From a virus, in the IMG/VR virus record IMGVR_UViG_3300032156_001766, positions 1 to 49,795 of that record: a stretch of 49,795 bases of DNA; one strand, 5' to 3'. The notes under the pieces are model-generated. The model made no database searches. It saw nothing but the letters and a program-made list of their open reading frames with translations, and was not told the DNA's origin. The position numbers and the translations under genes were made by a program. Shown here in pieces: positions 25,488 to 44,023 of the stretch (position 1 is the stretch's first letter; every line of letters starts with the position of its first letter).

Positions 25488-26651
25488 CTACTGAAATCTT
25501 GGTCTTCTAATGACTTGAGTATTTGCCTCTATCTCCTTCCAATATCCCTCAACTACATCAACCAACTTCTCATAAATCTGAGGATCATTATCGGCTGCCT
25601 CAACTAATTGCTCTCGACTAACCTTCTTATCAAAACTTTCTCCAAAAGCAATTTGAATCCGATCCGAAGGAAGAAAATCAACCATGGAACCAATATTATC
25701 GAGTCCATAGTCAAAGAGAATATCCACCTCTGCCTCCCGGAAAGGAGGGGCTACTTTTGAACGTTCAAATTTAGCACGGATCGTTACTCCATAAACCCGC
25801 TTCTCTTTATCATACTCTTTCTTCAAACGACCAGCCGTAGAAAGCCACGAAACTTGGTGGGTGTAAAAGTCCAGAGCCTTGCCCCCGGCTCGTATCTGCT
25901 TCTTCTCGAACATCCCAGCATTGATATTATCCCTGACCTGACTGATCAGAATGAGGGTAAAATCCTTCCCTTCCATTTCGGAACAAAGATTATTGAAGAG
26001 ATCAGCACTGAAATATTTAGCCCTCTCAGTCCCAGTCCCATAACTCCCTTTTATCTTTTCAGCCTTCTCTCCATCAGCCAGAGGCTCATCCTTTTTAATT
26101 GACTTGTCCAACCTAACTTTTCCAGCTTCGGTTCCAAGAGAATCGATTGAATCCAAAATCCCGAGAAATTGTTGTCCCGGTTTATGAGCGCGAACACACC
26201 GAAAGACGTCTCTTCCCCACTGCTCCGCCGTCTGGCACTTATCCGACCAATCAATGGACTTAGAGAATGATGGTCCATACATTTTTTCAAGAGGAAAATC
26301 CATCACAGTCTCTTTATTCCAATAGACAATATTGACCTCTTCAACCTTCGGAAAGAGTTTCGTCTTGATCTTCTTTCCATAGTAATGAAGTTGAGCCGCA
26401 GCCTCAAGGGCAAGAAGAGTCTTCCCCGTTGATCCGTCTCCAACCAGATTAATGATTCTCCCTCTTGCCCATCCTCCATCACGAGCCTTCTGAGAAGCTG
26501 CAAGATTAAGAATAATAGACCCACTATTGATAAACTCAACTCTACCTTTCTCTAAAACAGGAGGAAGAGTATAGGCTCTATGTCTGACTTGATCGACCGT
26601 AGAAGAGCTTTTTTGGTTTGAATTCCCTCTTGTTCTTGTTTTTTCTGTCAC
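25488..26651 (-). CDS. RecA/UvsX-like recombinase
   Basis: 387 residues. Walker A GDGSTGKTLLA (71-81), Walker B-like QFLGILDSIDSLG and a later FTLILISQVRDNINAGMF match the RecA core, with loop L2 near the SYGTGTERAKYF region. The amino end lacks the usual RecA oligomerisation helix pattern and is rich in Ser/Arg. It should coat single-stranded DNA and drive strand exchange for recombination-dependent replication, with the gp32-like protein encoded just before it. Confidence 0.88.
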   Translation of the reverse strand: MTEKTRTRGNSNQKSSSTVDQVRHRAYTLPPVLEKGRVEFINSGSIILNLAASQKARDGGWARGRIINLVGDGSTGKTLLALEAAAQLHYYGKKIKTKLFPKVEEVNIVYWNKETVMDFPLEKMYGPSFSKSIDWSDKCQTAEQWGRDVFRCVRAHKPGQQFLGILDSIDSLGTEAGKVRLDKSIKKDEPLADGEKAEKIKGSYGTGTERAKYFSADLFNNLCSEMEGKDFTLILISQVRDNINAGMFEKKQIRAGGKALDFYTHQVSWLSTAGRLKKEYDKEKRVYGVTIRAKFERSKVAPPFREAEVDILFDYGLDNIGSMVDFLPSDRIQIAFGESFDKKVSREQLVEAADNDPQIYEKLVDVVEGYWKEIEANTQVIRRPRFQ

Positions 26652-26685: not shown

Positions 26686-27837
26686 TTACCTTCTTCTCGT
26701 CCGGCTCGACGAGGCTGCCGCTACGGGCTTCTCAGATTCCTTTGTAGCTTTCTGTTTCTCTGCTTCTGCTTCCTTCGACAGCTCTTCATGTCGTTTTAAG
26801 CAGGCTTCATAAACCGCTTGATCGCAGGCCTCGTCTTTGCAGGCCTGAATCTTACCACAATCAATACCCAACTTCCCTCCCGCCGGACATTCATCCAACT
26901 TTGGAGGAACGACTTCCTTTTCTCCTCTTGTCCGAACCCCTTTAGAAGCTTCTGTTGATGGAGAAGACTCTGTTCCTGATCTTGTTCTGCTACGAGGAGC
27001 TTCATGATCAACAGGAGGAGGAGCTTCGGGTTGTTCGGTCCCATCATATCTCTTATCGTCTTCTCCTTCCAATCCATAATGAGCCACACGAATTTCTTCG
27101 TAGGTCGGAATAATTAAGGCACTGTCGAGAGAAGGCAATTTGCTAATTACCGAATCGTCGTAAGGATCTCGTTTATGAAAGGTAATTCCTTCCGCCTCAA
27201 TAAACGGGGTGCTTCCCAACTTCTTTTCTCGGCCTTTAAATTCAACCGACCGACCATCCTGAAGATCCCAAGGAACAACCATCCCTCCTTCGTCAATAGT
27301 GACTTTCAGTTCATCCAGAAGGTATTTCTCAAACATCTCATAACTGATCTCCCAAAGCTGAAAGCCTTTGTCCGGGTCGTCATAGTCAAAGATGATATAA
27401 AAGTCTCGCCAAGAAGGCTGGCAACTTTTGGCTCTCTTCTCATCAAACTCCCGGCTTCCATCTTTCCTTTTTTGAAACTCCGAAAACATTTCTTCACAAA
27501 TGGGATCATTCTTTCCCAAAGCCTCCCGAAGACAAAGCATCAGATCCTTAGCAGGACCAATATTACCATGACGAGCAACCTCCAATTTATAATCACAATC
27601 CCCTGGATCAAGACCCGTTACGACTCCGGCCCGAGTATGAAGGTTTTTATACCAGGACTGAGTTACTTGCCACGGCATGATATCAATATAATTCTTATCC
27701 CTGCCGCTTCGAGGAGTCCAAACCGGCAACTTAATCATCCCCAAATCAAGGATGCTTTTGCGGCCCAAGCCTCGACTATCTTTGTTGACCGCTGCTTGGT
27801 GGGTTCTGTTCTTTAGTTTTTCTTTCCAATCGCTCAT
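26686..27837 (-). CDS. gp32-like single-stranded DNA-binding protein
   Basis: 383 residues. The middle (IDIMPWQVTQSWYK..., WRDFYIIFDYDDP, then KGFQLWEISYEMFEKYLL) matches the OB-fold pattern I recall for T4 gp32-type proteins in distant phages. The carboxy part is a flexible Pro/Ser/Glu-rich linker, then a cysteine cluster (CPAGGKLGIDCGKIQACKDE, CDQAVYEAC) that may bind zinc, and a charged tail. It protects single strands and recruits recombinase and polymerase. Position before the recombinase supports this. Confidence 0.7.
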   Translation of the reverse strand: MSDWKEKLKNRTHQAAVNKDSRGLGRKSILDLGMIKLPVWTPRSGRDKNYIDIMPWQVTQSWYKNLHTRAGVVTGLDPGDCDYKLEVARHGNIGPAKDLMLCLREALGKNDPICEEMFSEFQKRKDGSREFDEKRAKSCQPSWRDFYIIFDYDDPDKGFQLWEISYEMFEKYLLDELKVTIDEGGMVVPWDLQDGRSVEFKGREKKLGSTPFIEAEGITFHKRDPYDDSVISKLPSLDSALIIPTYEEIRVAHYGLEGEDDKRYDGTEQPEAPPPVDHEAPRSRTRSGTESSPSTEASKGVRTRGEKEVVPPKLDECPAGGKLGIDCGKIQACKDEACDQAVYEACLKRHEELSKEAEAEKQKATKESEKPVAAASSSRTRRR

Positions 27838-27933: not shown

Positions 27934-28476
27934 CTACCCTCTTCGCGAACGAGGCCGATCACCTTGACCAGACTCCTGAGAAGCCGGCTTATTCATCTCT
28001 TCCCGCATCCGACTTGAGACTTTACCCCTGGCGATATCAACAATTCGTTTTCCTCCAGGGATGTCTCTCGGTTCTTTCGGACCAGAAAAATAACTTCCTA
28101 ACCACAACTTGACTTCATTTTCTAAAGCCGATCGCTTGTGATCAAGAGCCCGAACCGCAGACTGAAGCATGTTCAGTTCATAATTAGCCTCGGTCAAGTC
28201 ATTAACCCCCTTCTCATATTTAGGCTGAAGAAGAATAGTAGCCGCAATACTTGCTTCCTTAACATTTTCCAGTTTGAACTTAGTTGGATTCTCTCTAATG
28301 TCCCGATCCAATTCTGCTTTTATCACCTCCAATCTTTCTTTTAATTGATCCCGCCGCTTTTGAGCCTCGGCTGCCAATAAACTGTACTTCATATACAGTC
28401 CAGGTTGTTTCAGCCATTCTTCATCCAAACAATAAGGATCAATGGCAAGATCTTGTTCGTAGTTAAGTTCTGTCAT
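27934..28476 (-). CDS. Conserved helical phage protein in the SSB operon
   Basis: 180 residues. Residues 25-130 are strongly helical and charged (AAEAQKRRDQLKERLEVI, LQSAVRALDHKRSALENEV), with an acidic amino end and a basic, disordered tail (DRPRSRRG). Proteins of this look lie beside SSB and recombinase in other phages and may help load the recombinase. That role is inferred from position only. Confidence 0.6.
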   Translation of the reverse strand: MTELNYEQDLAIDPYCLDEEWLKQPGLYMKYSLLAAEAQKRRDQLKERLEVIKAELDRDIRENPTKFKLENVKEASIAATILLQPKYEKGVNDLTEANYELNMLQSAVRALDHKRSALENEVKLWLGSYFSGPKEPRDIPGGKRIVDIARGKVSSRMREEMNKPASQESGQGDRPRSRRG

Positions 28477-28627: not shown

Positions 28628-29566
28628 TTAAAATGGCACTACATCTTCCAAATCCACCATCGACCGATAGACCGCAAAAACAAAGCCTGCCTTTCCGGTG
28701 TTATAAAATGGTTCCTTAAAAGCATCATAAATCAAAGCCGCTCTCGCATCCTCTTGCCCTTTCATCATCCCTGCCGCAGCCAGACCAATTATAGCCCTAC
28801 GCGGAGATTCAGGATTAGAAAGATCCACTTGAGCCAAAAGAACAGAAAGTTTCTTCCAAGAATCCTTTTTCATAAGCCCATTATAAAGATCTAAAACTTG
28901 TTTTTCCGAATAAGCAAATGAGATAATAGCCCCTTCCATCTCCTCCAACTCCATGTCGACAATTTGATCCAAAATTTTGAGTGCATCACGAGGACAACCG
29001 TCTGAAGCTTCTGCAATCTTCTTCAACATCGTCATTGAAATATGATCAACCTTCTCTTGCTTCAATACACGTTGGAGAAGAAAAATCGTTTCCCTTTCAG
29101 TTAAATATTGGACCTCAAACGTATGACAACGACTACGGAGAGCAGGAATCAACCGAGAAGGGTCTGTCGTGCACAACAAAAAATAAGCATGCACCGGAGT
29201 GTCCTCCAAAGGCTTAAGCATTGCATTTTGAAAGTCTCCAGTTGTCATATGAACTTCGTCCAGTAAGTAAACCCGAGATTTTCCCATCATTGGTCTAAAT
29301 CTTGAACCCTCCATAATTGACCGAGCAGTTCCAATGCCCCGATCGTTAGAAGAATTGATCTCAATAAAATCATTTCCACGACATTCAAGTAAATCAACAA
29401 TGATACGAGCAATCGTAGTCTTACCACAACCTTTTGGTCCTTGAAGCAAAATCGCATGAGGCCAATCACTCTTTCGTTCATAAATAGATTTGAGACTGGC
29501 AATAGTTGACTTATTCCCTAACATTTCATCAAAAGACTTTGGCCTGTAATCGGTGTTAAGCGGCAT
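28628..29566 (-). CDS. DNA polymerase III clamp loader subunit, DnaX-like
   Basis: 312 residues. The start YRPKSFDEMLGNKSTIASL, Walker A GPKGCGKT (43-50), Walker B YLLDEVHMTT and the arginine-finger motif LRSRCHTFEV are those of DnaX/RFC small-subunit ATPases. The length matches the ATPase and lid plus a short collar, without tau extensions. It loads the phage sliding clamp at 35929-36945. Encoding clamp, loader and DnaE together makes replication largely host-independent. Confidence 0.92.
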   Translation of the reverse strand: MPLNTDYRPKSFDEMLGNKSTIASLKSIYERKSDWPHAILLQGPKGCGKTTIARIIVDLLECRGNDFIEINSSNDRGIGTARSIMEGSRFRPMMGKSRVYLLDEVHMTTGDFQNAMLKPLEDTPVHAYFLLCTTDPSRLIPALRSRCHTFEVQYLTERETIFLLQRVLKQEKVDHISMTMLKKIAEASDGCPRDALKILDQIVDMELEEMEGAIISFAYSEKQVLDLYNGLMKKDSWKKLSVLLAQVDLSNPESPRRAIIGLAAAGMMKGQEDARAALIYDAFKEPFYNTGKAGFVFAVYRSMVDLEDVVPF

Positions 29567-31022: not shown

Positions 31023-31050
31023 ATTATATAAAAAAACTAAAATTTTTGAA
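31023..31050 (-). promoter_or_regulatory. Phage promoter, TATAATAT class
   Basis: TATAAT at 31023-31028 within TATATAATATAT, a 16-base T-rich spacer and TTCAAA at 31045-31050. The -35 box lies inside the last codons of the PAPS-reductase-like gene. It drives the small-gene and clamp-loader operon. Confidence 0.6.
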
Positions 31051-31837
31051 CCTGAATTTCTAATCCTTTTCTTCCATTTTTAACTTTACCTTTAAACGAA
31101 TAAAACAACCACCAATTCATTACATCCTCAGGGGTATTCCACTTAATCTTTCTTCCTTGATCCAATGCTTTCTCTTTCCGACTTTCTAACATCTTTCCAA
31201 AAGCCCTCAAATAAGCTTGATAAAACTTTGGATATTCTTTTGCATCTATAAGTCTTTGTTTAAGAGGCTTCTGAGGACACATTAAACATCCCAACCTTTT
31301 TCTTCCTCTATCATACAAACTGCAATATAAAAGTTTTTGATCTTTTAGAAAACTCCAAACATCTCTTTCTGTCCAGTCTATTATAGGATTAAGATAATGC
31401 TTCTTTTCATCCTTGAAACATGTCTCAAAAACTCTTCTATCTTTCCTGGCCGAAGACTCTTGACTTCTTACCCCCAACATTACTACCCCTTGGCCGTGTC
31501 TTTCTTTTAAATATCTGCAGCAATACCTTATCCTTTTTGTCGGAGGAAAATGATTCTCAACAATTAACTTCCACATCGTTTTTTCTGGCAAATCTCGTTT
31601 AACCTCGGGATAATTTTTTCGTATAAAATAAACCAATTCTGGAGGATCAACCCCCGTAATATTATAATGAGCCTCAAAAGGAACTTCACTTATCTCAGCC
31701 AACCTATAAATCACTTGAGAATCTTTTCCTCCACTAAAGCCCAGCCAAATCAAACTTCCATCTCTTGGTCGATGAAGTTTGATTCTTTCTATTGCCATCT
31801 CCACTTTGCCATACACGGAAGGAAAAAAACCTTTCAC
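31037..31837 (-). CDS. PAPS-reductase-like PP-loop protein
   Basis: 266 residues from a GTG overlapping the polymerase stop (GTGA). SGGKDS (35-40) is the PP-loop that binds ATP or adenylyl groups; RIRYCCRYLK, VMLGVRSQESSARKDR and a CSLY...GCLMCP cysteine set follow. This is the phosphoadenosine phosphosulfate reductase/DndC-like superfamily. Phage copies are common and of uncertain role: sulfur assimilation, DNA or tRNA thio-modification, or nucleotide chemistry. Its coupling to the polymerase suggests a DNA-linked task. Confidence 0.75.
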   Translation of the reverse strand: MKGFFPSVYGKVEMAIERIKLHRPRDGSLIWLGFSGGKDSQVIYRLAEISEVPFEAHYNITGVDPPELVYFIRKNYPEVKRDLPEKTMWKLIVENHFPPTKRIRYCCRYLKERHGQGVVMLGVRSQESSARKDRRVFETCFKDEKKHYLNPIIDWTERDVWSFLKDQKLLYCSLYDRGRKRLGCLMCPQKPLKQRLIDAKEYPKFYQAYLRAFGKMLESRKEKALDQGRKIKWNTPEDVMNWWLFYSFKGKVKNGRKGLEIQVQKF

Positions 31838-34800
31838 TTTTTCTTTACCTCTTTATTAAAAGCTTCTGCAAACACCTCTATTCCTTTTCGAAACGGGTCA
31901 ATATTAGAACGCCGATTACGAAGAACTGCCGACGGATGAACACACCAGACAACCCAAGCCTTCACTTTTTCAACCCACTCCATCTGCCCACTTATAGAAG
32001 TGATGCCCGATTCTCTTCCCGTTAGAGCATAAAGGGGCAGATTACCAGTAGCCAGAATCAAGCGACAATTCATAGAGAAGATTTCTTTGATCATCCATCG
32101 ACCAAAGCATTCATCAATTTGCTCTTTAGAAGGAGTCCGACTTTTTGAAGGCCAGCACTTGCAACAATTTCCCACATGAATCATACGGCGAGTAATTCCA
32201 TACGATTTCATTTCATCCCAAAGCAACTGCCCGGCATCTCCAACAAAACCCCTACCTCGTTCATTTTCGTCCTGACCAGGAGCTTCTCCAAGAGCCAAAG
32301 CATTATACATACCAAGAGATGAAGGCACAACTTGACCTGCTTGCTGATGCAGTGGACAAGCAACACACCTTCTAACAGAAGGATCAATTAACATCTGCTT
32401 CCTAACGATCTTAACTTGGCTTCTTTTATCTTCTTGCTCTCCAATTGAATATTGGAAATAGTCCAGAAGGTTTTCTGGTCTGGCAGATGGAGCGGGATCA
32501 AACGCACAAATATCAATTAACAACTTCTCTAACTTTCCTTTTACCTCAAAAGTTTGTGACTCCTTTAACCCAAAAAAACCTTTCCTTGCTTTTTCCGCTA
32601 CAACTGTAGGTCTCATAGAAACACACTTATCAGCTTGGGTTTCTCCTATTCCTTTTATCTCTACAAATGGCATGTAAAGAAACTTATCTCGGGCAATCCA
32701 ACATCGAACATCTGAAATCCCAACTTTTGGAGTGACAATTGTCATTCCTTTTCTTTCGGCTTCCTTAACCACACTTTCTTTTTCAGTCCCATAAGTCAAC
32801 TGAGCGCAAAAGAACTCAGTTGAATAGTAGATCTTTAGCCATGCAGTCCAGTAACCAATCATTGTATACTCGACGGCATGAGCTTTTACAAATCCATAAC
32901 TTGCCCACTCCTGCAAACCCTGCCAAAACTTTTCAGCCTGCTGTTGAGTCAAGGTTTTCTTCTTCCAACATCCTTCCAAGAAAGCTTGCCTATAAGGTTC
33001 AAACTCTTCCGGGCTCCTCGTCTTACTAATAACTTTTCTAATTTGATCTGCATCTGAATTACTGAAACCAGCCAGACCCGTCATCACCTTCATCATTTGT
33101 TCTTGATAAATAATGACGCCATAAGTATCTTTTGTTATGGCTTCATAAACATGATGTAAAGGTTGCCATTTTTTTCCTTTCTTTCTCTCAACATAAAGCT
33201 CTGTCATTCCTGATTCCGCTGGACCAGGACGAGCCAAAGCAGTAATGGCCACCATATCTTCAAAACTATTAATTTCTATCTTCTTACATAATTCAGTACA
33301 AGAATAACCAGAAAATTGAAACACACCAGAAGTATTTCCTTGAGAAAGCATCTGAAAAACCTTCGGGTCATCTAAAGTCAAGTCTTCGTACTGAAAACTA
33401 ATTCCTTGAAGCGCCAATAACCGCTTTGCCTCATTTAAAACAGTCAACGTGCCTAACTTTAAAACATCTATCTTTATCAAGCCATTATGTTCACAGTCTT
33501 CCATATCCCAATTACAGACCAAGACGTCCGCCTTCTGACAAAGATTTCCACTTTCTCCTCCCCTCAAATCTTTAGCCGACAAGATAAGCCCCGCGGGATG
33601 TTGACCCCCAGTCTTTATTGTCCCTTCTAAAATACACATTAAACGAAACTCTTCTGGATACTTTTGGGCAAAATACTTACCTTCTTTTGTTTCCTGTCCT
33701 GCGTCAGCAACAACATCTTCCTCATGAGCTTCTGCTCGAATAGACTTGGCAAATGTATCTACATCCCAAACAGGCAAATCAAAAACTCGACCTACATCTC
33801 GAACGACTGCACGTCCTTTCATACGAAGAAATGTGCTAATACCAACCACATTATATTGACCATACTCTTCTTCCAAATGTTGCCGGACAAGATGGCATTT
33901 CACATCCTCAAAGTCCAAATCAATATCAGGACAGTCAATTCGATCCTCACTAATAAATCGTTCAAACAATAGTCCATAACGCAGGGGATCAACCTGGGTT
34001 ATAGTGAGCAAGTATGCAACCAAGCTCCCCCCGACTGACCCCCTACCGGGACCAACCATAATCCCTTTTTCTCGACACCATTGAACAATCTCAAAGACCA
34101 TTAAAAAATAACGAGCAAATTCTTTTCTATAAATCATCTCCATTTCGTGAGCATAACGAGCCCGATATTCAAATTGCCACTGGCCACTCTGCTGCATCTC
34201 TTCTGTTTTAGCAGAACAAAACTGAGCAAGAATCTCATCAGCTGTCATCTTTGGAAATTCTTTTTCATAACGGGTTTGTGGCAGATCCATATTTTGCTTC
34301 GGTAACTTAAAATCCCAGCACTTCTCAGCAATAGTCATCGTGTCCATCATAGTCTGATAATATTGAGTTCGATTTAAAACTCCCTGTTCCTTAAACATAT
34401 GGATCATCTCATCTGCTGTTCTCAGATAAAGACCATCAACTTCAAATCTCCAACGATCAGAATCTTTCCATTTTGCTTGCCTCTGAACAGCAAGCAAAAC
34501 TTCCTGAGCCTTAGTATGTTCGGCTTGAACATAATGACAATCATTTGTAGCCACAAGAGGAATTTCATACTTTCTTCCCAAATCAAGACACATCTGATTA
34601 ACAGTCTTTTGCCCCTCTGTTAAATGAGGCATAACTTCCAAATAACAATCAACCTCCCGAACCCTCAACTGGAGGAGCAACTCCTGTCCTTCCGGCATCA
34701 ATAAAAATGAAGTAGCACAACCAGTCAAGACAATCAAACCAGAATTAACGTGCTCCATAAAAGCCTGACTATCTATACGAGGACGATAATAAAAACCCTC

Positions 34801-35130
34801 CAGATTAGCAATTGTAAGCATCCGAGCAAGAGCCTGCCAACCAGACAAATCTTTAACCAGCATGGTAATATGACCATGAGGAGCTTTTCTTTCCTTCTTC
34901 TTCATATCCGAGACGAGATACATCTCGCAGCCCAAAATGGACTTTAACCCAACCTTTGCACAAGCTTTCTGCCATTTGAGATGAGCGTCAATATTTCCAT
35001 GATCTGTTACGGCCAAAGCCTTAAACCCCAACTCCTTAGCCCTTTCAATATAATGCTCCGGCTTTCCAAGACCATCCAGAAGACTGTGCTCAGAATGAAC
35101 ATGAAGGTGAACAAAATCCGAGTTACGCAT
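31834..35130 (-). CDS. DNA polymerase III alpha (DnaE) fused to family-4 uracil-DNA glycosylase
   Basis: 1098 residues. The amino end is the PHP domain (HLHVHSEHSLLDG, then AVTDHGN). The polymerase shows GPGRGSVGGSL and the catalytic CPDIDLDFED. From about residue 912 the chain is a complete family-4 uracil-DNA glycosylase: CVAC, GEAPGQDENERGRGFVGD (motif A), a third cysteine in CKCWPSKSRTP and a fourth 16 residues on, then CVHPSAVL (motif B). So all four iron-sulfur cysteines are present. The usual DnaE tail (OB fold, tau-binding end) is absent or replaced. It should copy DNA and remove uracil as one protein. Confidence 0.93.
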   Translation of the reverse strand: MRNSDFVHLHVHSEHSLLDGLGKPEHYIERAKELGFKALAVTDHGNIDAHLKWQKACAKVGLKSILGCEMYLVSDMKKKERKAPHGHITMLVKDLSGWQALARMLTIANLEGFYYRPRIDSQAFMEHVNSGLIVLTGCATSFLLMPEGQELLLQLRVREVDCYLEVMPHLTEGQKTVNQMCLDLGRKYEIPLVATNDCHYVQAEHTKAQEVLLAVQRQAKWKDSDRWRFEVDGLYLRTADEMIHMFKEQGVLNRTQYYQTMMDTMTIAEKCWDFKLPKQNMDLPQTRYEKEFPKMTADEILAQFCSAKTEEMQQSGQWQFEYRARYAHEMEMIYRKEFARYFLMVFEIVQWCREKGIMVGPGRGSVGGSLVAYLLTITQVDPLRYGLLFERFISEDRIDCPDIDLDFEDVKCHLVRQHLEEEYGQYNVVGISTFLRMKGRAVVRDVGRVFDLPVWDVDTFAKSIRAEAHEEDVVADAGQETKEGKYFAQKYPEEFRLMCILEGTIKTGGQHPAGLILSAKDLRGGESGNLCQKADVLVCNWDMEDCEHNGLIKIDVLKLGTLTVLNEAKRLLALQGISFQYEDLTLDDPKVFQMLSQGNTSGVFQFSGYSCTELCKKIEINSFEDMVAITALARPGPAESGMTELYVERKKGKKWQPLHHVYEAITKDTYGVIIYQEQMMKVMTGLAGFSNSDADQIRKVISKTRSPEEFEPYRQAFLEGCWKKKTLTQQQAEKFWQGLQEWASYGFVKAHAVEYTMIGYWTAWLKIYYSTEFFCAQLTYGTEKESVVKEAERKGMTIVTPKVGISDVRCWIARDKFLYMPFVEIKGIGETQADKCVSMRPTVVAEKARKGFFGLKESQTFEVKGKLEKLLIDICAFDPAPSARPENLLDYFQYSIGEQEDKRSQVKIVRKQMLIDPSVRRCVACPLHQQAGQVVPSSLGMYNALALGEAPGQDENERGRGFVGDAGQLLWDEMKSYGITRRMIHVGNCCKCWPSKSRTPSKEQIDECFGRWMIKEIFSMNCRLILATGNLPLYALTGRESGITSISGQMEWVEKVKAWVVWCVHPSAVLRNRRSNIDPFRKGIEVFAEAFNKEVKKK

Positions 35131-35904: not shown

Positions 35905-35932
35905 ACACAGATTTTCATACACAGATTCTCAT
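35900..35932 (-). repeat. Tandem 14-base repeat of a gene start
   Basis: ATGs at 35932, 35918 and 35904 (minus strand) are spaced exactly 14 bases, each in the context ATG(A/G)AAAT-like plus TGTGT between. The first ATG overlaps the clamp stop. The first two open only five codons. This looks like slippage duplication of the mini-protein's start. Confidence 0.7.
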
Positions 35933-36945
35933 ATCAAAGAGATCACATGCTCAAATTTTTCGCCACCAAAATAAAGCTTGTCGTCACTAACCTTCATCTC
36001 CTTCACATGAGAAAGAATTTCAATAAGGGCTTCAGGTGACACCTTGACCTCAAAATCCTTCTTCTTATAATCGACTTTAAACTCTTCCTCAATCCAGCCC
36101 AAAGCTCCTTCCCCCCGACAAGTCAACTTACCTGACTTATAAACTCTGATCTGAATTAAATCATCTACTTCAGTAATTTGTTGCGAGAAAATCTTTGCTC
36201 GATCAAGTGATTCTTTCAACCCTTCTGGAATTACAATAGAATCTCCTTTCTGAGTAAACAACCCCCACACGTCTTCTTGTGGATATTCACCCTCTATAAC
36301 CCGGCTACTGAAAATTACTCCATCCGCATTCTTAAAATGAATCCATGCTCCTTCCGCTTCTATCACATAATGAGTTGGAGAATGCTTTGCAAGCTCCTGA
36401 GCAACAGTGGCAGGAAGAAGAAACTCAGGAAGTTTGGAATCCATTTCATATTTTGTTGCCCGAAAATTGTCCGAAGACAAAACATAGTTGTTGTTGATAC
36501 AAAGGCAAGTCAACTCTTTCATCAGCATATTGCGATCGGCTGAAAAAGAGCAAAAACGAATAGCGTCAGAAAAGTTCTTGGGTAACATAAACCATCGTTT
36601 TGTCTTGATGATAATGGCAGGGCATTTAACTTCAGCGGCCGTGACTATTAACCCTTTTATTGACCCTTTCGTTTTCTCAATAGTAATGCTTAGAGAACCT
36701 TCACTTTCACTTAACTCAATTTCCTGTGACTCAATTTTAGAAATGAGCTTAAAAAACTCATCGGCTTTGATAGCCAAATGAAACCCGGACTTGAAAGGAT
36801 AACTAATGGCAATTCGATCATTATACGTACGGACGTAATCATTATCAAAAATAAAATGATCCGTCTGCTCAATGATCGCCTTATCCGAAAGCGCAGGTTT
36901 TACCTTGGAAAGGGCCTCAAACAACTCACTCTTTTTTACTTTCAT
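35929..36945 (-). CDS. dnaN: DNA polymerase III beta sliding clamp
   Basis: 338 residues in the three-domain layout of bacterial beta clamps: ELFEALSKVKPALSDK at the start, LAIKADEFFKLISKIES in domain 1, WFMLPKNFSDAIRF and CLCINNNYVLSSDNFRATK in domain 2, and ALIEILSHVKEMKVSDDKLYF-type strand-helix order in domain 3. It is slightly shorter than E. coli DnaN (366). It tethers the DnaE-UDG polymerase and is loaded by the DnaX-like ATPase. KIYFAG-type mini-protein genes lie on both sides, coupled by overlap. Confidence 0.85.
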   Translation of the reverse strand: MKVKKSELFEALSKVKPALSDKAIIEQTDHFIFDNDYVRTYNDRIAISYPFKSGFHLAIKADEFFKLISKIESQEIELSESEGSLSITIEKTKGSIKGLIVTAAEVKCPAIIIKTKRWFMLPKNFSDAIRFCSFSADRNMLMKELTCLCINNNYVLSSDNFRATKYEMDSKLPEFLLPATVAQELAKHSPTHYVIEAEGAWIHFKNADGVIFSSRVIEGEYPQEDVWGLFTQKGDSIVIPEGLKESLDRAKIFSQQITEVDDLIQIRVYKSGKLTCRGEGALGWIEEEFKVDYKKKDFEVKVSPEALIEILSHVKEMKVSDDKLYFGGEKFEHVISLI

Positions 36946-37334: not shown

Positions 37335-37508
37335 CCCCGTTTCCTCATCTTTTTCTCCCCAAAATAAAATTGCAAATCCTTTTTAAATGAAGTCAAAGAA
37401 TAATAAGAAACCAATCTCCCTCCTCTCCTCCTTTTTCTAACCAACTGGACTATCCATCTTTGACATTTCCTTGGAGATATATTTTCCCCCTCCAAAATAA
37501 ATTCTCAT
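37331..37508 (-). pseudogene. KIYFAG-family mini-protein (copy f), frameshifted at a G5 run
   Basis: The ATG overlaps the DpdA-like stop (ATGA). Frame zero reads MRIYFGGGK and ends after 23 codons. Dropping one G from the GGGGG run (37486-37490 on the plus strand as CCCCC) gives an intact 58-residue protein, MRIYFGGENISPRKCQRW..., with GGRLVSYYSLTSF, and a stop that overlaps the next ATG. This is a one-base sequencing error, a true mutation or a programmed frameshift; the intact coupling at both ends favours the first or third. Confidence 0.75.
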
Positions 37509-38416
37509 ATCAAACCAAATCCCTTTTTTGATCCCTTAAAAGGCCACGGCCATTCAGGCAACGATTTCTCCAGATCTAAGAAATAGATGATATTCATTTC
37601 ATCCCGCAGCTTATAACTATTACAAAGTCCTTCCTCTATCTTCAACTCCACTTCTTTTACTCCATTTACCTCATCCCCGTTCCACCGCTCATCCTTCTTA
37701 AGTTTATAAGACACAGGCTCCATTCTAAACTTCGATTTGCCAATTTTATATCCCTTCTCCTCAAAGTAATGAAGAATAATTTTCTGCACTTCAGGAGTAA
37801 ATGTATCAAAATGCTGTCCCTCTTCTTCTTTATTAGAAGAACGGGAAGAGACAGCTACCTTCCAAGAGTTCTCATCATAAATCCACTTTCCTCCCTTAAA
37901 ACGAGGAACAAAAACAGATCCCATTCGAGACGTCATGACCCAGGAAGTACTATCGACACTGTACCACGGATAACGCATAATCAAATCAAGAGACGTCATT
38001 CCAAATCCGTGGACTTTTACTTTTGGCATTCCATCATCCCCACAGATTATACCAAAACAATTATCAAAGTGTTGTTTCAATACCCCTCTCTCTGCACCCC
38101 TTGAAATCTTGGCAACTCCACCCAAAGCAATGAAGCTATACTCATCCACATATTTTCTCAGCCAATTGTAAGGCTCTTTGTGATGAAAAGTAATTATCGG
38201 ATGAAGTCCCTTTGACTCCATATACTTCTGGTTCTCATACGTCTTTTCTGGATTACCAATAACATCCAAGCCAGCGTATACATCAATCCACTCCTCATTT
38301 TTTTTTATGAAATCGATGTATTCGTCAATATCAATTTTTATTCCCTTCGTCCATGCAGAATAGGCCCCAGAATCCAGAAACAAACTTATTCGTCCTTCTT
38401 TTCCTCTTATTCTCAT
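37505..38416 (-). CDS. DpdA-like DNA guanine transglycosylase
   Basis: 303 residues. LFLDSGAYSAWTKG (D15), GLDVIGNPEKTYENQ, HPIITFHHKE, FIALGGVAK and KVHGFGMTSLDL, then YSVDSTSW (D155) follow the TIM barrel of tRNA-guanine transglycosylase relatives in phages, with D15 and D155 the likely acid and nucleophile. Phage DpdA proteins swap guanine in DNA for a 7-deazaguanine base. The barrel begins directly at the second motif; the usual opening strand-helix-strand is missing and may be supplied by a mini-protein. It is coupled to the ArcS-like gene. Confidence 0.82.
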   Translation of the reverse strand: MRIRGKEGRISLFLDSGAYSAWTKGIKIDIDEYIDFIKKNEEWIDVYAGLDVIGNPEKTYENQKYMESKGLHPIITFHHKEPYNWLRKYVDEYSFIALGGVAKISRGAERGVLKQHFDNCFGIICGDDGMPKVKVHGFGMTSLDLIMRYPWYSVDSTSWVMTSRMGSVFVPRFKGGKWIYDENSWKVAVSSRSSNKEEEGQHFDTFTPEVQKIILHYFEEKGYKIGKSKFRMEPVSYKLKKDERWNGDEVNGVKEVELKIEEGLCNSYKLRDEMNIIYFLDLEKSLPEWPWPFKGSKKGFGLI

Positions 38417-39288
38417 ATAAGAGCCCTCCTTAAAGCTCCAATTCTTTGTTGATCCAAAAGATCAACATAATTAAAATAAAACTTAATGGGGTTGACAAAA
38501 ATCTTCTCCGCTGAGCTATTTATCAATCCCTTTTCAATTGCCTCATTATAGTAATCACAATAAACGACAATCTTTTCATATGTATACTGGGAGAAATACC
38601 AAGAGACTATCTTCATTAAACGCCATTCATTTGGTAATCCTGAGTCATACCAAGGCATGATAGACCACAACTCCATCGGGACAAGACCAAGAACCCCTGT
38701 AGCCACTATAATATGATACTCAGGAGGCAACATTTCCAAAATGGCTTTATGCAGCTTAGACGGATATGGTTTATCCGCTGCACAAGGAACAAGGACACAA
38801 CACTTTTTAGAGGGTACAAACTCTCTTAATACAGACAAATAATCAAGAACTTCCTTCCGATGAAAAGAACCATTATTAGTAATAACAAAATCTTTTTTTG
38901 CCACCCTTCTCTCCACCACCCACATTTGAGGACTCTTTCTCAACGGCCATTCCATATCTGATTTCCACAATGCATCAACCAACTCAGGTCTGAATCCGGT
39001 AAGGGTTTCAAGAAGAGTTCTATCTCTGAGAATTTTTCCCTTCGTTAACTTTTTCTCATCAACCAGACAAATTACTATATCATCATGTTCAAAATAACAT
39101 TGCCCTCCTTCAACTTCAGCTCCCAACCACCACAGCAACGGAATCCAACACCCCGGAGGATTCTTTATTACCACAGGCTTTTCACTCATATAAACAGATT
39201 CAAAAACCTTCAAATATTGTCCATAACGATCCTCGTAAGTAAGACCAGACGGCATTTTAATCAAATCAACGATCTCATTACTATCCAT
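38413..39288 (-). CDS. ArcS-core-like archaeosine synthase homolog
   Basis: 291 residues from the ATG with AAGGGG upstream; an earlier GTG overlaps FolE. VLVPCAADKPYPSKLH (about 166-181) resembles the ArcS core motif PC-x3-KPY-x2-S-x2-H, here with one residue fewer before Ser. It is followed by LGLVPMELWSIMPWYDSGLP, as in the DUF5591-type domain. In archaea ArcS adds lysine to preQ0 in tRNA on the way to archaeosine. Here it probably modifies preQ0 in DNA. The amino 160 residues are not recognised. No RaSEA partner is seen. Confidence 0.7.
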   Translation of the reverse strand: MDSNEIVDLIKMPSGLTYEDRYGQYLKVFESVYMSEKPVVIKNPPGCWIPLLWWLGAEVEGGQCYFEHDDIVICLVDEKKLTKGKILRDRTLLETLTGFRPELVDALWKSDMEWPLRKSPQMWVVERRVAKKDFVITNNGSFHRKEVLDYLSVLREFVPSKKCCVLVPCAADKPYPSKLHKAILEMLPPEYHIIVATGVLGLVPMELWSIMPWYDSGLPNEWRLMKIVSWYFSQYTYEKIVVYCDYYNEAIEKGLINSSAEKIFVNPIKFYFNYVDLLDQQRIGALRRALI

Positions 39289-39308
39289 TTCATTTGTCCC
39301 CTTTCTAC

Positions 39309-40217
39309 TTATTTTTTCCACAAAGCCATCAACTCATTCCGAGCAGCAACACCAGCCGGAGAACTCTCCAAAAATACCCCCTTCAAAGAACTATAACCCA
39401 TAATTGAATGCTGTTTCTTAATTCCCCGACAAGCCATACAAAAATGCCGAGCTTCTATTAGGCAAGCCGCTCCAAACGGTTTTAAATACTCCATCAAAGC
39501 ATTGGTAACCTGCTCACCAATCCGCTCCTGCATTTGAAATCGGCAAGCATAAATATCAAGAAGTCGAGCCAATTTAGATGCTCCAATGACTGGCCCGTTT
39601 GGAATATAAGCGATGAAAGCCTGTCCCGAAAAGGGCAACCAATGATGCTCGCATGTCGAATAAAATTCCACATCTTTCATATAAACCAACCCACCAAACT
39701 GTTCTTTTTCATCATCAAAAGTTTTAAACACTTCCCGGACATCTTGTTTATAACCAACGAACATCTCCTCCCAAGATCTTATCATCCGATCAGGAGTCTC
39801 CTTCATTCCTACTCGACATGGATCTTCCCCAATATATTCAATGAGCCGAACAATATGATCTTGAACCGATGATTCTTTTTCCTCCCAAAAATAGTTGATC
39901 CACTTATTTTCACATTTAACATAAAACGTAGGATAAAATTCATGAGGAGTGCTTTCTTTAATATGGATAGATGCAAAATCAAACCTCTGAAATCGAGCAC
40001 GAGTCTTACCTGAATCAACGACATCATCAACGACAAGAGTATCACTATCAGGATGGTCTGTAATAGGCAAACTCAACTTCTGGGCCAAAGTTACCGCCAA
40101 GGGAATTCCTCCTCTCGGAACCCCATAGATAGAAGAATAATTACAATTACAAATTTTATGAGCGAGAATCTCAACATCTTCAAAAAACACAACCGGAGAG
40201 TAATAAACATGCTCCAC
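39309..40217 (-). CDS. folE: Phosphoribosyltransferase-GTP cyclohydrolase I fusion
   Basis: 302 residues from a GTG with AAGGAG nine bases upstream. Residues 1-105 are a type I phosphoribosyltransferase: IYGVPRGGIPLAV and the PRPP loop LVVDDVVDSGKT (61-72). From about 118 it is GTP cyclohydrolase IA: EFYSTCEHHWLPFSG (zinc Cys189 and His), LARLLDIYACRFQMQERI and EARHFCMACRG (zinc Cys263). The second part makes dihydroneopterin triphosphate, the first precursor of preQ0. The first part may salvage a purine or deazapurine base. The fusion is unusual. Confidence 0.88.
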   Translation of the reverse strand: MEHVYYSPVVFFEDVEILAHKICNCNYSSIYGVPRGGIPLAVTLAQKLSLPITDHPDSDTLVVDDVVDSGKTRARFQRFDFASIHIKESTPHEFYPTFYVKCENKWINYFWEEKESSVQDHIVRLIEYIGEDPCRVGMKETPDRMIRSWEEMFVGYKQDVREVFKTFDDEKEQFGGLVYMKDVEFYSTCEHHWLPFSGQAFIAYIPNGPVIGASKLARLLDIYACRFQMQERIGEQVTNALMEYLKPFGAACLIEARHFCMACRGIKKQHSIMGYSSLKGVFLESSPAGVAARNELMALWKK

Positions 40218-40232
40218 TATTTTGTCTCCTTC

Positions 40233-40892
40233 CTATTGATAGCTAATGAGATCTTTTCCCCCAACCTTTCTAAATGCTTCCAATCTTTCCTGACAACTTC
40301 CGCAAACTCCACAACTCAATGGCTGATTCTTATAACACGTCCTGGTAAGATGATAAGGAACAGGTGGAGACATCGACAATCCAATTTTAAGAATTTCAGT
40401 CTTATTCAAATATTGAAATGGAGATTCCAAATGAACCCGATTTCCTGACCCTTGGATCACCGCGGAATTCATTGCAGCAATAAATCCTGCCCGACAATCC
40501 TCATAAATTACATGATCACCTCCATGAACTCCTACCATGATAACTTCTGCTCCAATACTCCAAGCGTATCCCATCAGGATAGAAATGAAAATAACGTTTC
40601 TTCCGGGTACAACAGTCAGCTTCATACTCTCTGACTCATAATGCCCCTCTGGAATTTCTCCTCCACTTATTAACAGATTTGATTTAAACAACTCCCCAAT
40701 AAAAGGCAGTTTAACTATTTTCCCTTCTAAACGATAATGCCCCACCAGCTTTAAAGCGGCCTCCTTCTCATATCTTCCATGTTTTGATCCATAATCAAAA
40801 AAGACGGGAAACACTTCATCCCCTCTGGCAAGAGAGAAAGCCAGCAAAGTTGCCGAATCCATACCTCCTGACAATCCTGACACGACTTTCAT
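40233..40892 (-). CDS. queC: 7-cyano-7-deazaguanine (preQ0) synthase
   Basis: 219 residues. GLSGGMDSATLLAF holds the PP-loop (8-13), then DYGSKHGRYE, the VPGRNVIFIS motif and the zinc-type end CYKNQPLSCGVCGSC. QueC turns 7-carboxy-7-deazaguanine into preQ0 with ATP and ammonia. All four steps from GTP to preQ0 are encoded within 4.5 kb. Confidence 0.93.
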   Translation of the reverse strand: MKVVSGLSGGMDSATLLAFSLARGDEVFPVFFDYGSKHGRYEKEAALKLVGHYRLEGKIVKLPFIGELFKSNLLISGGEIPEGHYESESMKLTVVPGRNVIFISILMGYAWSIGAEVIMVGVHGGDHVIYEDCRAGFIAAMNSAVIQGSGNRVHLESPFQYLNKTEILKIGLSMSPPVPYHLTRTCYKNQPLSCGVCGSCQERLEAFRKVGGKDLISYQ

Positions 40893-40915
40893 TTGTCCAC
40901 CCTTTCCTGAACAAC

Positions 40916-40947
40916 AATGTGGGGGAATTAGTTAATTTCCCCACATT
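40916..40947. other. Hairpin upstream of queC
   Basis: AATGTGGGG and CCCCACATT (40916-40924 and 40939-40947) pair over 9 bp, and AATT/AATT inside could extend the stem. No T run follows on either strand, so it is a weak terminator candidate or an mRNA processing or control element before queC. Confidence 0.4.
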
Positions 40948-40979
40948 GAAAAACTCTGACATAAGTAAAGGGAAAATTC

Positions 40980-41579
40980 TTATTTTACAAATAAAATCTT
41001 TCCCTCAACCACTTTCACCCGGCCCAGCCTTTTCAAAGTTGCAAGAGTGCCAAAATAAGTGGCAGAGTTTTCATTCCACTTGGCCTTCTTCACCTCTTCC
41101 ATCGTGGTCCCGGTTTTTCCAGCATTTACGATCATCTTTGCAAACTGACTTGCTTTCGATTCTTCTCGAAATCCAAACTGATCCTTCTTTTTCTCTTCCA
41201 CCGCGGCCTTAGCAATCTTGGCTGGCTTAGTGACCTTAGCTGTCTTAGCAGCCTTAGCGGTCTTAGCAATGGGAGTTTCTTTTCCTCCCATCTTTGCCCG
41301 AATCCCTTCAACCTTCAATGCCTCAAGGACATCGATCGTTGCGGAAGTCACTTTATCAGTGGCCTGAAGAAGAGCAACCCCTCCATCATCTTGTCCGGTT
41401 GCCACTTCCACCAGATCCTTCTCCAGTTGCTCCATGAACTTCTTCTCTTGATTCTTCAGTGCCACTCCTTTCTCCGTCGACTTGAACTCAGTCACAATCT
41501 TCGGATTCAACTCCAAAACCTTATTCAAATCACTTGCCGCCGCCACCAACATCTCTTTTGTTAACTCCTTCTCTTTCAT
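40980..41579 (-). CDS. Lys/Ala-rich winged-helix protein, histone H1-like linker
   Basis: 199 residues. A helical amino half (1-100) is joined by a low-complexity KTAK/KPAK linker (about 103-127, AKTAKAAKTAKVTKPAKIAK) to a carboxy-terminal winged helix (SKASQFAKMIVNAGKTGTT, then NSATYFGTLATLKRLG and VKVVEGKILFV). The linker resembles bacterial AlgP- or histone H1-like tails that bind DNA without sequence preference. It may be a chromatin-like or regulatory protein. It lies among the modification genes. Confidence 0.7.
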   Translation of the reverse strand: MKEKELTKEMLVAAASDLNKVLELNPKIVTEFKSTEKGVALKNQEKKFMEQLEKDLVEVATGQDDGGVALLQATDKVTSATIDVLEALKVEGIRAKMGGKETPIAKTAKAAKTAKVTKPAKIAKAAVEEKKKDQFGFREESKASQFAKMIVNAGKTGTTMEEVKKAKWNENSATYFGTLATLKRLGRVKVVEGKILFVK

Positions 41580-41638
41580 CTCTTTTTCCTCCTTTGGGTT
41601 TAGGTTAAATTGTTAACTGCTATTTGACCTTTTACATC

Positions 41639-42217
41639 TCATTCATACTTGCTCCAAATAATTTTTTTATATAATCTTTTCCAACGATAAATGTTATTTG
41701 CTTTTGCATTACAAGGATTACATAAAGTGATCAAATTAAATTGGGAGGAGTTGTTTTTGTTAAAATCGATATGATGTATGGTCAACCTTCTATAATCTCC
41801 AGAACAATAAGGATTTTGACATTCGTTATTATCCCTGCTTCTTATAAACTGTTTAAGTCCCTTATTAAAAATTGGAGGGTAAGGTAGGAAAGATACCCCT
41901 CCTTGCCAGTTAGGATGTTTCTCACCTTTTTTAGCTTCTGATAATTTTTTTCTATGCTCTTCTGAATGAGGATTAGATTTACCCTTCATAGGACTGGGTT
42001 TTCCTTTATGAGAAAGACTTAGCTTTCTTTTAGTTTCTTCGGAATGTTTTCTCCCTTTTTGAGCTTTTGACATTTTTTGTTTTGTTTTTTCTGAACGAAG
42101 TCTTTCCTTCATAACTTCCGACAATTTCTTTTTTGTTTCTTCTGAATGAAGTCTTCCTGTCAGAGTTTTCGATATTTTTTGTTTTGTTTCTTCTGACATT
42201 TTAAAACCTTTCCTCAT
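41639..42217 (-). CDS. Free-standing NUMOD3/HNH endonuclease
   Basis: 192 residues from the ATG with GGAG six bases upstream. About five NUMOD3-type modules (SEETKQKISKTLTGRLH, SEETKKKLSEVMKERLR and so on) precede an HNH domain with NECQNPYCSG, LTIHHIDFNKNN and LITLCNPCNAKAN, ending KIIWSKYE. It is close to the copies at 43008 and 18866. It has its own TATAATAT promoter. Confidence 0.88.
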   Translation of the reverse strand: MRKGFKMSEETKQKISKTLTGRLHSEETKKKLSEVMKERLRSEKTKQKMSKAQKGRKHSEETKRKLSLSHKGKPSPMKGKSNPHSEEHRKKLSEAKKGEKHPNWQGGVSFLPYPPIFNKGLKQFIRSRDNNECQNPYCSGDYRRLTIHHIDFNKNNSSQFNLITLCNPCNAKANNIYRWKRLYKKIIWSKYE

Positions 42218-42252
42218 AACCATCTCCTACAATCTCAATTCTATACATCTAT

Positions 42253-42280
42253 ATTATATAAAAAAAACGAAAAGTTTAAA
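42253..42280 (-). promoter_or_regulatory. Phage promoter, TATAATAT class
   Basis: TATAAT at 42253-42258 in TATATAATATAG, a 16-base T-rich spacer and TTTAAA at 42275-42280. It lies between queE and the endonuclease gene and probably restarts transcription for the second half of the modification island. Confidence 0.65.
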
Positions 42281-42288
42281 GGTTTTTT

Positions 42289-42969
42289 TCACCGAACCGA
42301 CAACAATTTATGCATCTGGATATTTACCGCTACATCCCATTGAAGGTCTCTGATTAGCCAATCAACCAAATCATGCGGAGAAAGCATAAATTTTGACTCC
42401 TCGTCTCTGTCCACATCTCTTCCAAAAATTCCAGCGGCCGGAGAAAAAGCAAAAGAGGCTTTTGACCCTGCCTGCCTTAACCAATTCTTAATTCTAATTG
42501 CCTCTTTGTAATCATTTTCACCTTCAATCACGATCTTAATCCAATGACAAGAAGATAAAATATTTGCCATCATTCCTATCTGCATCTTCTCAGGGAATTC
42601 CAACTTATAATCAAAAATCCAAGAGAGCCACTTGTCCTGAAAATAAATCAAAGGAGGGACAATGCTACCATTGGTCTCAACTGAAATCTTATAATCATAT
42701 TTAAGTAACAAATCAATCAATTGAAGAACCCCCTCCATCTGAACCAATGGTTCACCCCCAGTGATGGTAACTTTATGACAACCCAACTTTTGAATCTTCT
42801 CAAAAATCTCATCCACCAATAACTCAACTCCCGGAACTTTAGATTGAGGAGTGTCGCACCATCGACAACGAAGATTACACTGAGAGGTCCGAATGAATGT
42901 TGACAATCTCCCTTGGCCCCAAGGATTCACTTCTCCATCCACGCTCTGAAAAATCTCTGCAACCTGCAT
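42289..42969 (-). CDS. queE: 7-carboxy-7-deazaguanine synthase, radical SAM
   Basis: 226 residues. IFQSVDGEVNPWGQGRLSTF, the radical-SAM CxxxCxxC in CNLRCRWCDT (C31, C35, C38) and VTITGGEPL are clear QueE features. It converts 6-carboxy-tetrahydropterin to 7-carboxy-7-deazaguanine. A strong AAGGAGG lies upstream of the ATG. Confidence 0.93.
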   Translation of the reverse strand: MQVAEIFQSVDGEVNPWGQGRLSTFIRTSQCNLRCRWCDTPQSKVPGVELLVDEIFEKIQKLGCHKVTITGGEPLVQMEGVLQLIDLLLKYDYKISVETNGSIVPPLIYFQDKWLSWIFDYKLEFPEKMQIGMMANILSSCHWIKIVIEGENDYKEAIRIKNWLRQAGSKASFAFSPAAGIFGRDVDRDEESKFMLSPHDLVDWLIRDLQWDVAVNIQMHKLLSVR

Positions 42970-43007
42970 CCTTTTTTCCCTCCTTTTAACAAATTCATTT
43001 CCAAATC

Positions 43008-43559
43008 TTACTCATACTTACTCCAAATAATTTTTCTATATAATCTTCGCCAACGATGTTTATTATTTGCTTTCCCATTGCAAGGAAAACATAAGGTAAT
43101 TAGATTAAATTGAGAACAATTGTCTTTATCATAATCAACATGATGTATAGTTAATGTTTTGGAAACATCGCTACAATAAGAATTTTGACATTCATTACTA
43201 TCTCTATTCTTTATAAACTGTTTAAGTTCATTGTTGAAAACTGGAGGATAAGGAAGGAAAGATGCTCCTCCCTTCCAGTTAGGACTTTTATCTCCAATAT
43301 ACCTTCCTCTTTTGACTTCTGACATTTTCCTTTTCGTTTCTTCTGAATGACGCCTTCCTTTCAAACCTTCTGATATTTTCTTCCTTATCTCTGGTCTGCG
43401 ACTACCGTTGTTAACGCTTATCTTTCTTTTTGTTTCTGGCCTATGAGCCCCATTGTTAATGCTTATTTTTCTTTTTGTTTCTTCTGATACTTTATGACCC
43501 TTTAAGATGTCTGACATCTTCCTTTTTGTTTCTTCTGAATGTTTTGATCCTACTTGCAT
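43008..43559 (-). CDS. Free-standing NUMOD3/HNH endonuclease
   Basis: 183 residues from the ATG with a purine-rich ribosome site; an upstream ATG at 43607 would overlap the mini-protein c. NUMOD3-type modules (SEETKRKMSDILKGHK, SEETKRKISINNGAHR, and two shorter RRPEIRKKI types) lead to an HNH domain with NECQNSYCSD, LTIHHVDYDKDN and LITLCFPCNGKAN, ending KIIWSKYE. It has inserted between the mini-proteins and queE. Confidence 0.87.
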   Translation of the reverse strand: MQVGSKHSEETKRKMSDILKGHKVSEETKRKISINNGAHRPETKRKISVNNGSRRPEIRKKISEGLKGRRHSEETKRKMSEVKRGRYIGDKSPNWKGGASFLPYPPVFNNELKQFIKNRDSNECQNSYCSDVSKTLTIHHVDYDKDNCSQFNLITLCFPCNGKANNKHRWRRLYRKIIWSKYE

Positions 43560-43696
43560 CTCTTTTTCCTCCCTTCCTCCATTAAGAATGGTCGTTCGAT
43601 GATCCAAAAATAAGACAAAAGCCTGAGTTTGACTAACTTATAAAATCCTCGTTTCTCACGAGGGGTAATACTATTTCCTGCAAAATAAATCTTCAT
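43550..43696 (-). CDS. KIYFAG-family mini-protein (copy c)
   Basis: 48 residues: MKIYFAGNSITPREKRG, then FYKLVKLRLLSYFWIIERP and a basic tail. GAGGAG lies close before the ATG. It overlaps copy b by 26 bases and the endonuclease by 10. It is the shortest family member, so the two strand motifs and the helix between them form the whole core. Confidence 0.75.
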   Translation of the reverse strand: MKIYFAGNSITPREKRGFYKLVKLRLLSYFWIIERPFLMEEGRKKRCK

Positions 43697-43856
43697 TCTC
43701 CTCTTCCAACTTAAAAATAATTTTTCTCGTAATCTCAAGCCACTCCATATAATAGTACGATGCCAGACGACAAAGCGAACCATTTCTCTCAAGAGAAATT
43801 CTCTTCAAATTTATTTCTCTCGGTTCAACCAGATTTCCTGCAAAATATATTTTCAT
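43671..43856 (-). CDS. KIYFAG-family mini-protein (copy b)
   Basis: 61 residues: MKIYFAGNLVEPREINLKR, then NGSLCRLASYYYMEWLEI and a glutamate-rich tail. The ATG overlaps the stop of copy a (ATGA). PRE after the first strand is shared with copy c and, as SPR, with copy f. Confidence 0.75.
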   Translation of the reverse strand: MKIYFAGNLVEPREINLKRISLERNGSLCRLASYYYMEWLEITRKIIFKLEEENEDLFCRK

Positions 43857-44023
43857 CTTAGAGAGTCTCTAAACTTCTTGTAGGCGCTCCATCCTTTACC
43901 CGACAACTTTCCCTCACTTTCTTCTTTAATCAAGAAAAAACTGAGCAAACGATTCTGAATCAATTTAAACCATCCTTGCTGACGTCTCTCAGACATCGTG
44001 TCACCTGCAAAATAAACTTTCAT
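43853..44023 (-). CDS. KIYFAG-family mini-protein (copy a)
   Basis: 56 residues: MKVYFAGDTMSERRQQGW, then FKLIQNRLLSFFLIKEESEG and a basic end. The ATG overlaps the queD stop (ATGA). It is the first of three tandem copies, all coupled, at the head of the modification island. Confidence 0.75.
   Translation of the reverse strand: MKVYFAGDTMSERRQQGWFKLIQNRLLSFFLIKEESEGKLSGKGWSAYKKFRDSLR

Follow-up and report, generated by a model that had tools for sequence, protein, structure and literature searches.

Here we describe a gene from a viral record of IMG/VR (IMGVR_UViG_3300032156_001766; 49,795 bases, analyzed over its whole length and called the window below) that joins a replicative-type DNA polymerase to a DNA repair enzyme. 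A single ATG-to-stop open reading frame (ORF) of 1098 amino acids on the minus strand (31834-35130) encodes a C-family DnaE-type polymerase followed by a uracil-DNA glycosylase (UDG) of the [4Fe-4S] family-4 type. The initial annotation of this stretch had proposed such a fusion, and its coordinates proved exact, with the ORF and the Pfam domains in agreement. The UDG is complete and, as predicted from its residues, probably catalytically competent. We hold, with somewhat more confidence than doubt, that the protein would keep a UDG tethered to the replisome, where it would remove uracil at the phage fork and leave abasic sites for host or recombination repair.

A DnaE polymerase that ends in a UDG

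The 1098-residue protein contains, in order, a PHP domain, the C-family core, the finger domain, one helix-hairpin-helix (HhH), a short linker, and the UDG, which starts ∼30 residues past the end of the polymerase part. The N-terminal 890 residues match the NCBIfam DnaE model TIGR00594 with 713.8 bits (cut-off 434), while the DnaE equivalog PRK05673 is not reached (706 against a cut-off of 1002). The catalytic residues D402, D404, and D555 are present in 39 of 39 aligned rows. With its PHP domain, core, finger, and Asp triad the polymerase is of the C-family DnaE type, but it is not a DnaE1. The metal-site-like residues of the PHP domain (H10, H12, D19, H44, E69, H87, C138, D197, and H199) are conserved among aligned relatives, which, when taken with the analogy to Mycobacterium tuberculosis DnaE1, the closest solved structure, makes an intrinsic 3′-5′ exonuclease plausible. 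A single HhH is recognizable after the finger, the second HhH of cellular DnaE being reduced. HHH_6, the OB fold, and the tau-binding C-terminal domain (CTD) have no Pfam match in the fusion protein and the UDG stands in their place, so the usual DnaE carboxy end is indeed missing, as had been claimed. HHH_6, OB-like ends, or both are present in other phage DnaEs.

The UDG part is recognized by PF03167 at residues 945-1082 (E 1.2e-18; 67.9 bits against the Pfam gathering cut-off of 24.3). The initial annotation had described a whole family-4 UDG, and its elements are all present: the four [4Fe-4S] cysteines, motif A of the form GE(A/G)PGxxE, and motif B of the form HPxxxL align with the family-4 UDGs of Thermotoga and Thermus. 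The top-matching UDG models for the last 180 residues, TIGR00758 (87.8 against 125.3 bits) and NF040953 (89.3 against 250), stay under their cut-offs, and we read the domain as a divergent, fused member of the family-4 type. In UdgX, which binds uracil covalently, the last two Fe-S cysteines are separated by an additional loop that carries the reactive His109. In the fused domain the gap between C992 and C1008 is only 15 residues (CWPSKSRTPSKEQIDEC), lacks a His, and has no such loop, and TIGR03914 scores 82.7 against a cut-off of 190; judged from its sequence, the domain is not a UdgX.

An AlphaFold2 model was built from 39 window and locus sequences, with a mean predicted local distance difference test score (pLDDT) of 89.2 and a predicted template modeling score of 0.74; pLDDT falls below 50 at residues 846-852 and 898-907. 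The polymerase part has its nearest solved match in M. tuberculosis DnaE1 (5lew; Z 47.7 over 838 residues), followed by DNA-bound Taq DnaE (4iqj and 3e0d; Z ∼43). Residues 912-1095 superpose on Thermus UDG 1ui1 (Z 25.0, rmsd 1.9 over 181 residues) and on a Sulfolobus family-4 UDG (Z 23.5). The model thus suggests two well-formed bodies on a flexible tether. A structure model had been called for to locate the UDG relative to the template; it delivers both folds, but since the tether is disordered it predicts no fixed place for the UDG on the DNA.

The model also bears on a second function that had been offered for the fusion, namely that the UDG scans single-stranded template before it is copied and brings the polymerase to a halt at uracil. 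Archaeal PolB reads ahead in this way, with a family-B polymerase and a noncatalytic uracil pocket in the N-terminal domain. In the chain, the UDG sits where the OB fold would be, and that fold faces the single-stranded template in Taq DnaE; the alignment of the model to DNA-bound Taq 3e0d reaches into the UDG (model residues 1-1086), which is a weak hint in the same direction. However, the tether is disordered, the active site is that of an excising enzyme rather than a binding-only pocket, the UdgX-type loop is absent, and the polymerase belongs to family C and not to PolB. We therefore consider template read-ahead improbable, and this part of the initial annotation found no support.

Conservation, decay, and loss among relatives

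Scans of viral contigs with one protein as the query returned one relative each, and a query made from a two-sequence alignment returned 57 viral loci (numbered with the prefix L below), in which the UDG was called with a profile made from clear members. In 43 of the 57, a UDG with the Fe-S cysteines lies in one frame with DnaE, and all of these but L027 have the active-site motifs. The domain is decayed in L043, L047, and L049 and lost in L023; the rest are ordinary DnaEs or are truncated at contig ends. A near relative, L003, has a UDG tail 89% identical to that of the window on a contig that starts inside the frame, and L078, from a contig of a WWE3 metagenome-assembled genome (MAG), is a further one-frame fusion. 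Together with the window these give a set of 46 fused UDGs (the window and 45 others, including L003 and L078; ∼40-55% identity). All 46 keep the four Fe-S cysteines, and 45 keep motif A, the uracil-specificity Asn, and motif B, with L027 as the exception (GGVPG / VTF / SP). The initial annotation had named a stop or frameshift between the domains in related genomes, or loss of the UDG motifs there, as signs against it; no such interruption was found, and motif retention in 45 of 46 speaks for the domain. When the window is compared with L003, dN/dS in the UDG part is 0.12 at a dS of 0.68 (clamp loader, 0.11), a sequence signature of purifying selection between near relatives.

These data also bear on the origin of the fusion. 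That it is a chimeric assembly, a sequencing error, or a nonfunctional passenger is a reading to which we give practically no credence: the same one-frame fusion is found in dozens of contigs from different samples, and independent contigs together with the dN/dS of 0.12 rule out an artifact or frameshift. Confinement of the fusion to the window phage is likewise rejected by the related viral contigs that carry it. In cellular genomes the match extends through the UDG in only one of the best 80 loci, L078, whose MAG contig may be mis-binned phage, and a wide distribution of the fusion was rejected for these best-scoring cellular loci.

Several relatives carry large in-frame inserts that are inteins, mostly with HNH endonucleases (PF14890). 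Two lie within UDG motif A (L035 and L046) and two directly before an Fe-S cysteine (L034 and L039); others interrupt the polymerase near residue 745 (L052 and L053), and L055, listed with the polymerase inteins, has two. Inteins tend to occupy conserved active sites, and those in or near the UDG site are therefore independent, indirect evidence of its functional importance. We note that the intein of L034 contains a DUF559/Vsr-like nuclease instead of HNH, and that the L045 protein has a stretch of ∼240 residues between polymerase and UDG (844-1083) that was not recognized as an intein. In L024, L025, L028, L030, and L040, motif A reads GQDPG(F/Y)DE in a four-Cys family-4-type frame; this resembles the family-1 UDG motif GQDPYH, and a shift in catalytic chemistry is possible from the sequence.

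A tree was built from DnaE core columns only (66 rows, 838 columns). In it the DnaEs that carry a UDG, whether intact or decayed, all fall into one clade, which favors one fusion event; the SH-aLRT of the clade, 93, is under the 95 taken for firm support. The ordinary phage DnaE L050 adjoins the clade, and bacterial DnaE lies outside it. The tree implies at least four losses of the active site: in L027, in L043, in L047/L049, and in a group made up of the SSU5-like phage Cyrano, Rhizobium phage N1_15, and an Acinetobacter phage-plasmid. L027 and L043 have lost the active site and kept the Fe-S cysteines, and PF03167 still exceeds the Pfam score in the absence of catalytic motifs in the Rhizobium (39.8 bits) and Acinetobacter (45.2) proteins and in L049 (32.9). 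The domain itself was lost once on the tree: the polymerase of L023 (5998-8757) belongs to the clade, ends where the UDG should begin, and is followed by the clamp loader, with no UDG elsewhere in the locus.

Uracil excision and DNA holding

The window encodes a terminase, a portal, a major head protein, a DnaB-like helicase, a primase, a clamp, a clamp loader, and a UvsX-like recombinase, and no second DnaE-type polymerase was found in it. Given these replication genes, DnaE-UDG is most likely the replicase of a tailed phage; its gene lies in a conserved island of clamp, polymerase, clamp loader, and recombinase. Partner genes were surveyed in 15 phage records of 50-115 kb that carry the fusion and that may be incomplete. 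In every record the fused UDG is the only one. None has a dUTPase of either the trimeric or the dimeric type, no abasic-site (AP) endonuclease scored over the cut-off in any of the 15, and ThyX occurs in three. These absences suggest that the phages neither control dUTP themselves nor encode full base-excision repair.

In the mechanism that we prefer, a C-family DnaE with a reduced second HhH, and with the UDG substituted for the OB fold and tau-binding end, would hold a working glycosylase at the phage fork on the flexible tether. There it would take uracil out of DNA passing the replisome, whether dUMP incorporated from the dUTP pool or deaminated cytosine, and the abasic sites so formed would be left to host enzymes or to recombination by the phage UvsX system. 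Uracil removal might in this way stand in for the dUTPase absent from the phage records. The initial annotation had likewise coupled synthesis to uracil removal, which stands as the best-supported function, by inference only.

Several points weigh against this mechanism. At least four lineages are without the active site and one is without the domain, all with the polymerase kept, so excision is not indispensable. Excision of uracil from a single-stranded template would be harmful. The lack of an AP endonuclease over the cut-off means that no phage-encoded excision-repair pathway was seen, in records that may be fragments, and the UDG scores lie under the family-4 cut-offs.

The same evidence raises the question of whether the UDG serves chiefly to hold DNA or to confer processivity in the stead of the OB fold, with catalysis secondary or vestigial. 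The model for this is vaccinia D4, a UDG built into a viral replicase, the E9-A20-D4 holoenzyme. D4 is a separate subunit held by A20 and belongs to another UDG family without Fe-S, and the polymerase is of family B. The essential role of D4 in the polymerase complex and in processivity is independent of its glycosylase activity (PMC1936997), and its presence in the holoenzyme serves as a precedent (PMC3946371, PMC10253040). In the phages, the fold is retained with the active site gone in the four or more lineages named above, the UDG occupies the OB-fold place in the chain, and neither dUTPase nor AP endonuclease was found in the records. However, 45 of 46 fused UDGs keep all predicted uracil-pocket and catalytic residues despite large divergence, which DNA binding alone would not require, and the phages already have their own clamp and clamp loader. 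We consider it unlikely, although a serious alternative, that DNA holding is the main role.

Holding probably accompanies excision all the same. Because the fold persists without catalysis in several lineages, it probably does something besides catalysis, most simply hold DNA as the lost OB fold would have done, by analogy with D4; such an added grip on DNA, which the UDG domain probably provides, would explain why the fold outlasts its active site. A fuller account, which we put forward only tentatively, would have one ancient fusion place polymerase, PHP exonuclease, and active UDG on one chain to replace a phage dUTPase, with the UDG also holding DNA, hence at least four catalytic losses with the fold kept, in parallel with the recruitment of poxvirus D4.

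Known fusions and genome neighborhood

The architecture itself is not new. Some strains of Yersinia pestis and Salmonella enterica were reported to have extra DnaEs in which PF03167 replaces OB and CTD (Timinskas et al., 2013/2014, PMC3919608). In these, too, a UDG-superfamily domain follows the PHP-Pol-HhH core where OB and CTD would be, but they were described as additional polymerases in bacterial strains; they probably belong to SSU5-type phage-plasmids. In Cyrano, taken here as their nearest proxy, all four Cys and both UDG motifs are lost, whereas the window domain is complete. In the Klebsiella plasmid CP052423 (L070) and in Acinetobacter plasmids, SSU5-type DnaE genes are split by NUMOD4 HNH genes, and as a result the decayed UDG at the C-terminal end is annotated as a separate "uracil-DNA glycosylase". 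UDG-PolA fusions have been described in phages of the PaBG / Lupandier group (PMC7412058). These and those in Thermus phage phiLo and in MW202455 also join a UDG-superfamily domain to a phage polymerase, but the polymerase is of family A, unrelated to DnaE, and the UDG is N-terminal rather than C-terminal; they are therefore independent fusions. The Thermus and Thermotoga family-4 UDGs (1ui0, 1ui1, and 1vk2) have the same fold (Z 23.6-25.0), the same four Cys, and the same motifs, but are stand-alone repair enzymes ∼28-31% identical to the fused domain.

No published account of this DnaE-UDG phage clade was found in the open-access literature. Several features appear to be new: a large clade of environmental phages in which the Fe-S and active-site set is complete, the role of the fusion as core replicase, the repeated decay, the inteins at the UDG site, and the absence of a dUTPase. 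Uracil is normally removed by enzymes that are separate from the replicase or only loosely recruited to it. With a UDG hard-wired into the main polymerase of a large phage clade, replication-coupled uracil excision becomes testable in one purified chain, and the sister lineages with a naturally dead UDG are ready controls that separate excision from DNA holding. The clade adds to poxvirus D4 and phage UDG-PolA another viral lineage whose replicase has taken in a UDG. It suggests that phages may have an option other than dUTPase or, speculatively, a counter to defenses that raise dUTP.

Table 1. Coordinates of the DnaE-UDG gene, its parts, and conserved neighboring genes in the window
Feature	Position	Strand	Basis or remark
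DnaE-UDG fusion gene, 1098 amino acids	31834..35130	-	Single ORF; Pfam domains; same fusion in relatives
PHP domain, residues 8-141 (Pfam-matched part)	34708..35109	-	Pfam 5e-33
C-family polymerase core DNA_pol3_alpha, residues 300-557	33460..34233	-	Pfam 2e-68
PDIDLDF catalytic motif	33910..33930	-	Sequence; D402, D404, D406 invariant among aligned relatives
Finger domain, residues 561-724	32959..33450	-	Pfam 4e-45
Single HhH PFVEIKGIG..., residues ∼821-838	32617..32670	-	Alignment of relatives
RKGFF motif, residues 849-853, putative clamp-binding peptide	32572..32586	-	FF recurs in most aligned relatives
Polymerase-UDG linker, residues ∼860-911	32398..32553	-	Partly disordered (pLDDT <50 at 846-852, 898-907)
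Family-4-type UDG domain, residues 912-1095	31846..32397	-	PF03167; structural match to Tth UDG 1ui1
Fe-S cysteines C922 and C925 (CxxC)	32356..32367	-	Kept in 46/46 fused UDGs
UDG motif A GEAPGQDE, residues 948-955	32266..32289	-	Alignment; intein insertion site in L035, L046
Fe-S cysteines C992 and C1008 (C-x15-C)	32107..32157	-	Kept in 46/46 fused UDGs
UDG motif B HPSAVL, residues 1065-1070	31921..31938	-	Alignment
Sliding-clamp-like processivity factor (phrog_947)	35929..36945	-	Near DnaE-UDG in 20 related loci
Clamp loader (phrog_5846)	28628..29566	-	In 27 related loci
Weakly UvsY-like conserved neighbor	27934..28476	-	phrog_231, 2.5e-5; 35 related loci
Conserved neighbor, putative single-stranded DNA-binding	26686..27837	-	40 related loci; no convincing family match
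UvsX/RecA-like recombinase	25488..26651	-	31 related loci

Further genes of the window, all on the minus strand, are of note. A PAPS-reductase-like gene (31037-31837) has a GTG start that overlaps the stop codon of the polymerase; it is near the fusion in none of the relatives. A set of 7-deazaguanine DNA-modification genes (37505-44418) encodes a DpdA/TGT-like protein (phrog_887), a DUF5591 protein that is possibly archaeosine-synthase-like, GTP cyclohydrolase I, QueC, a radical-SAM QueE-like protein, and a QueD-like protein. Nine relatives that have either the fused polymerase or the sister form without a UDG also encode DpdA. Four NUMOD3 homing-endonuclease-like genes are located at 18866-19546, 20858-21682, 41639-42223, and 43008-43607.

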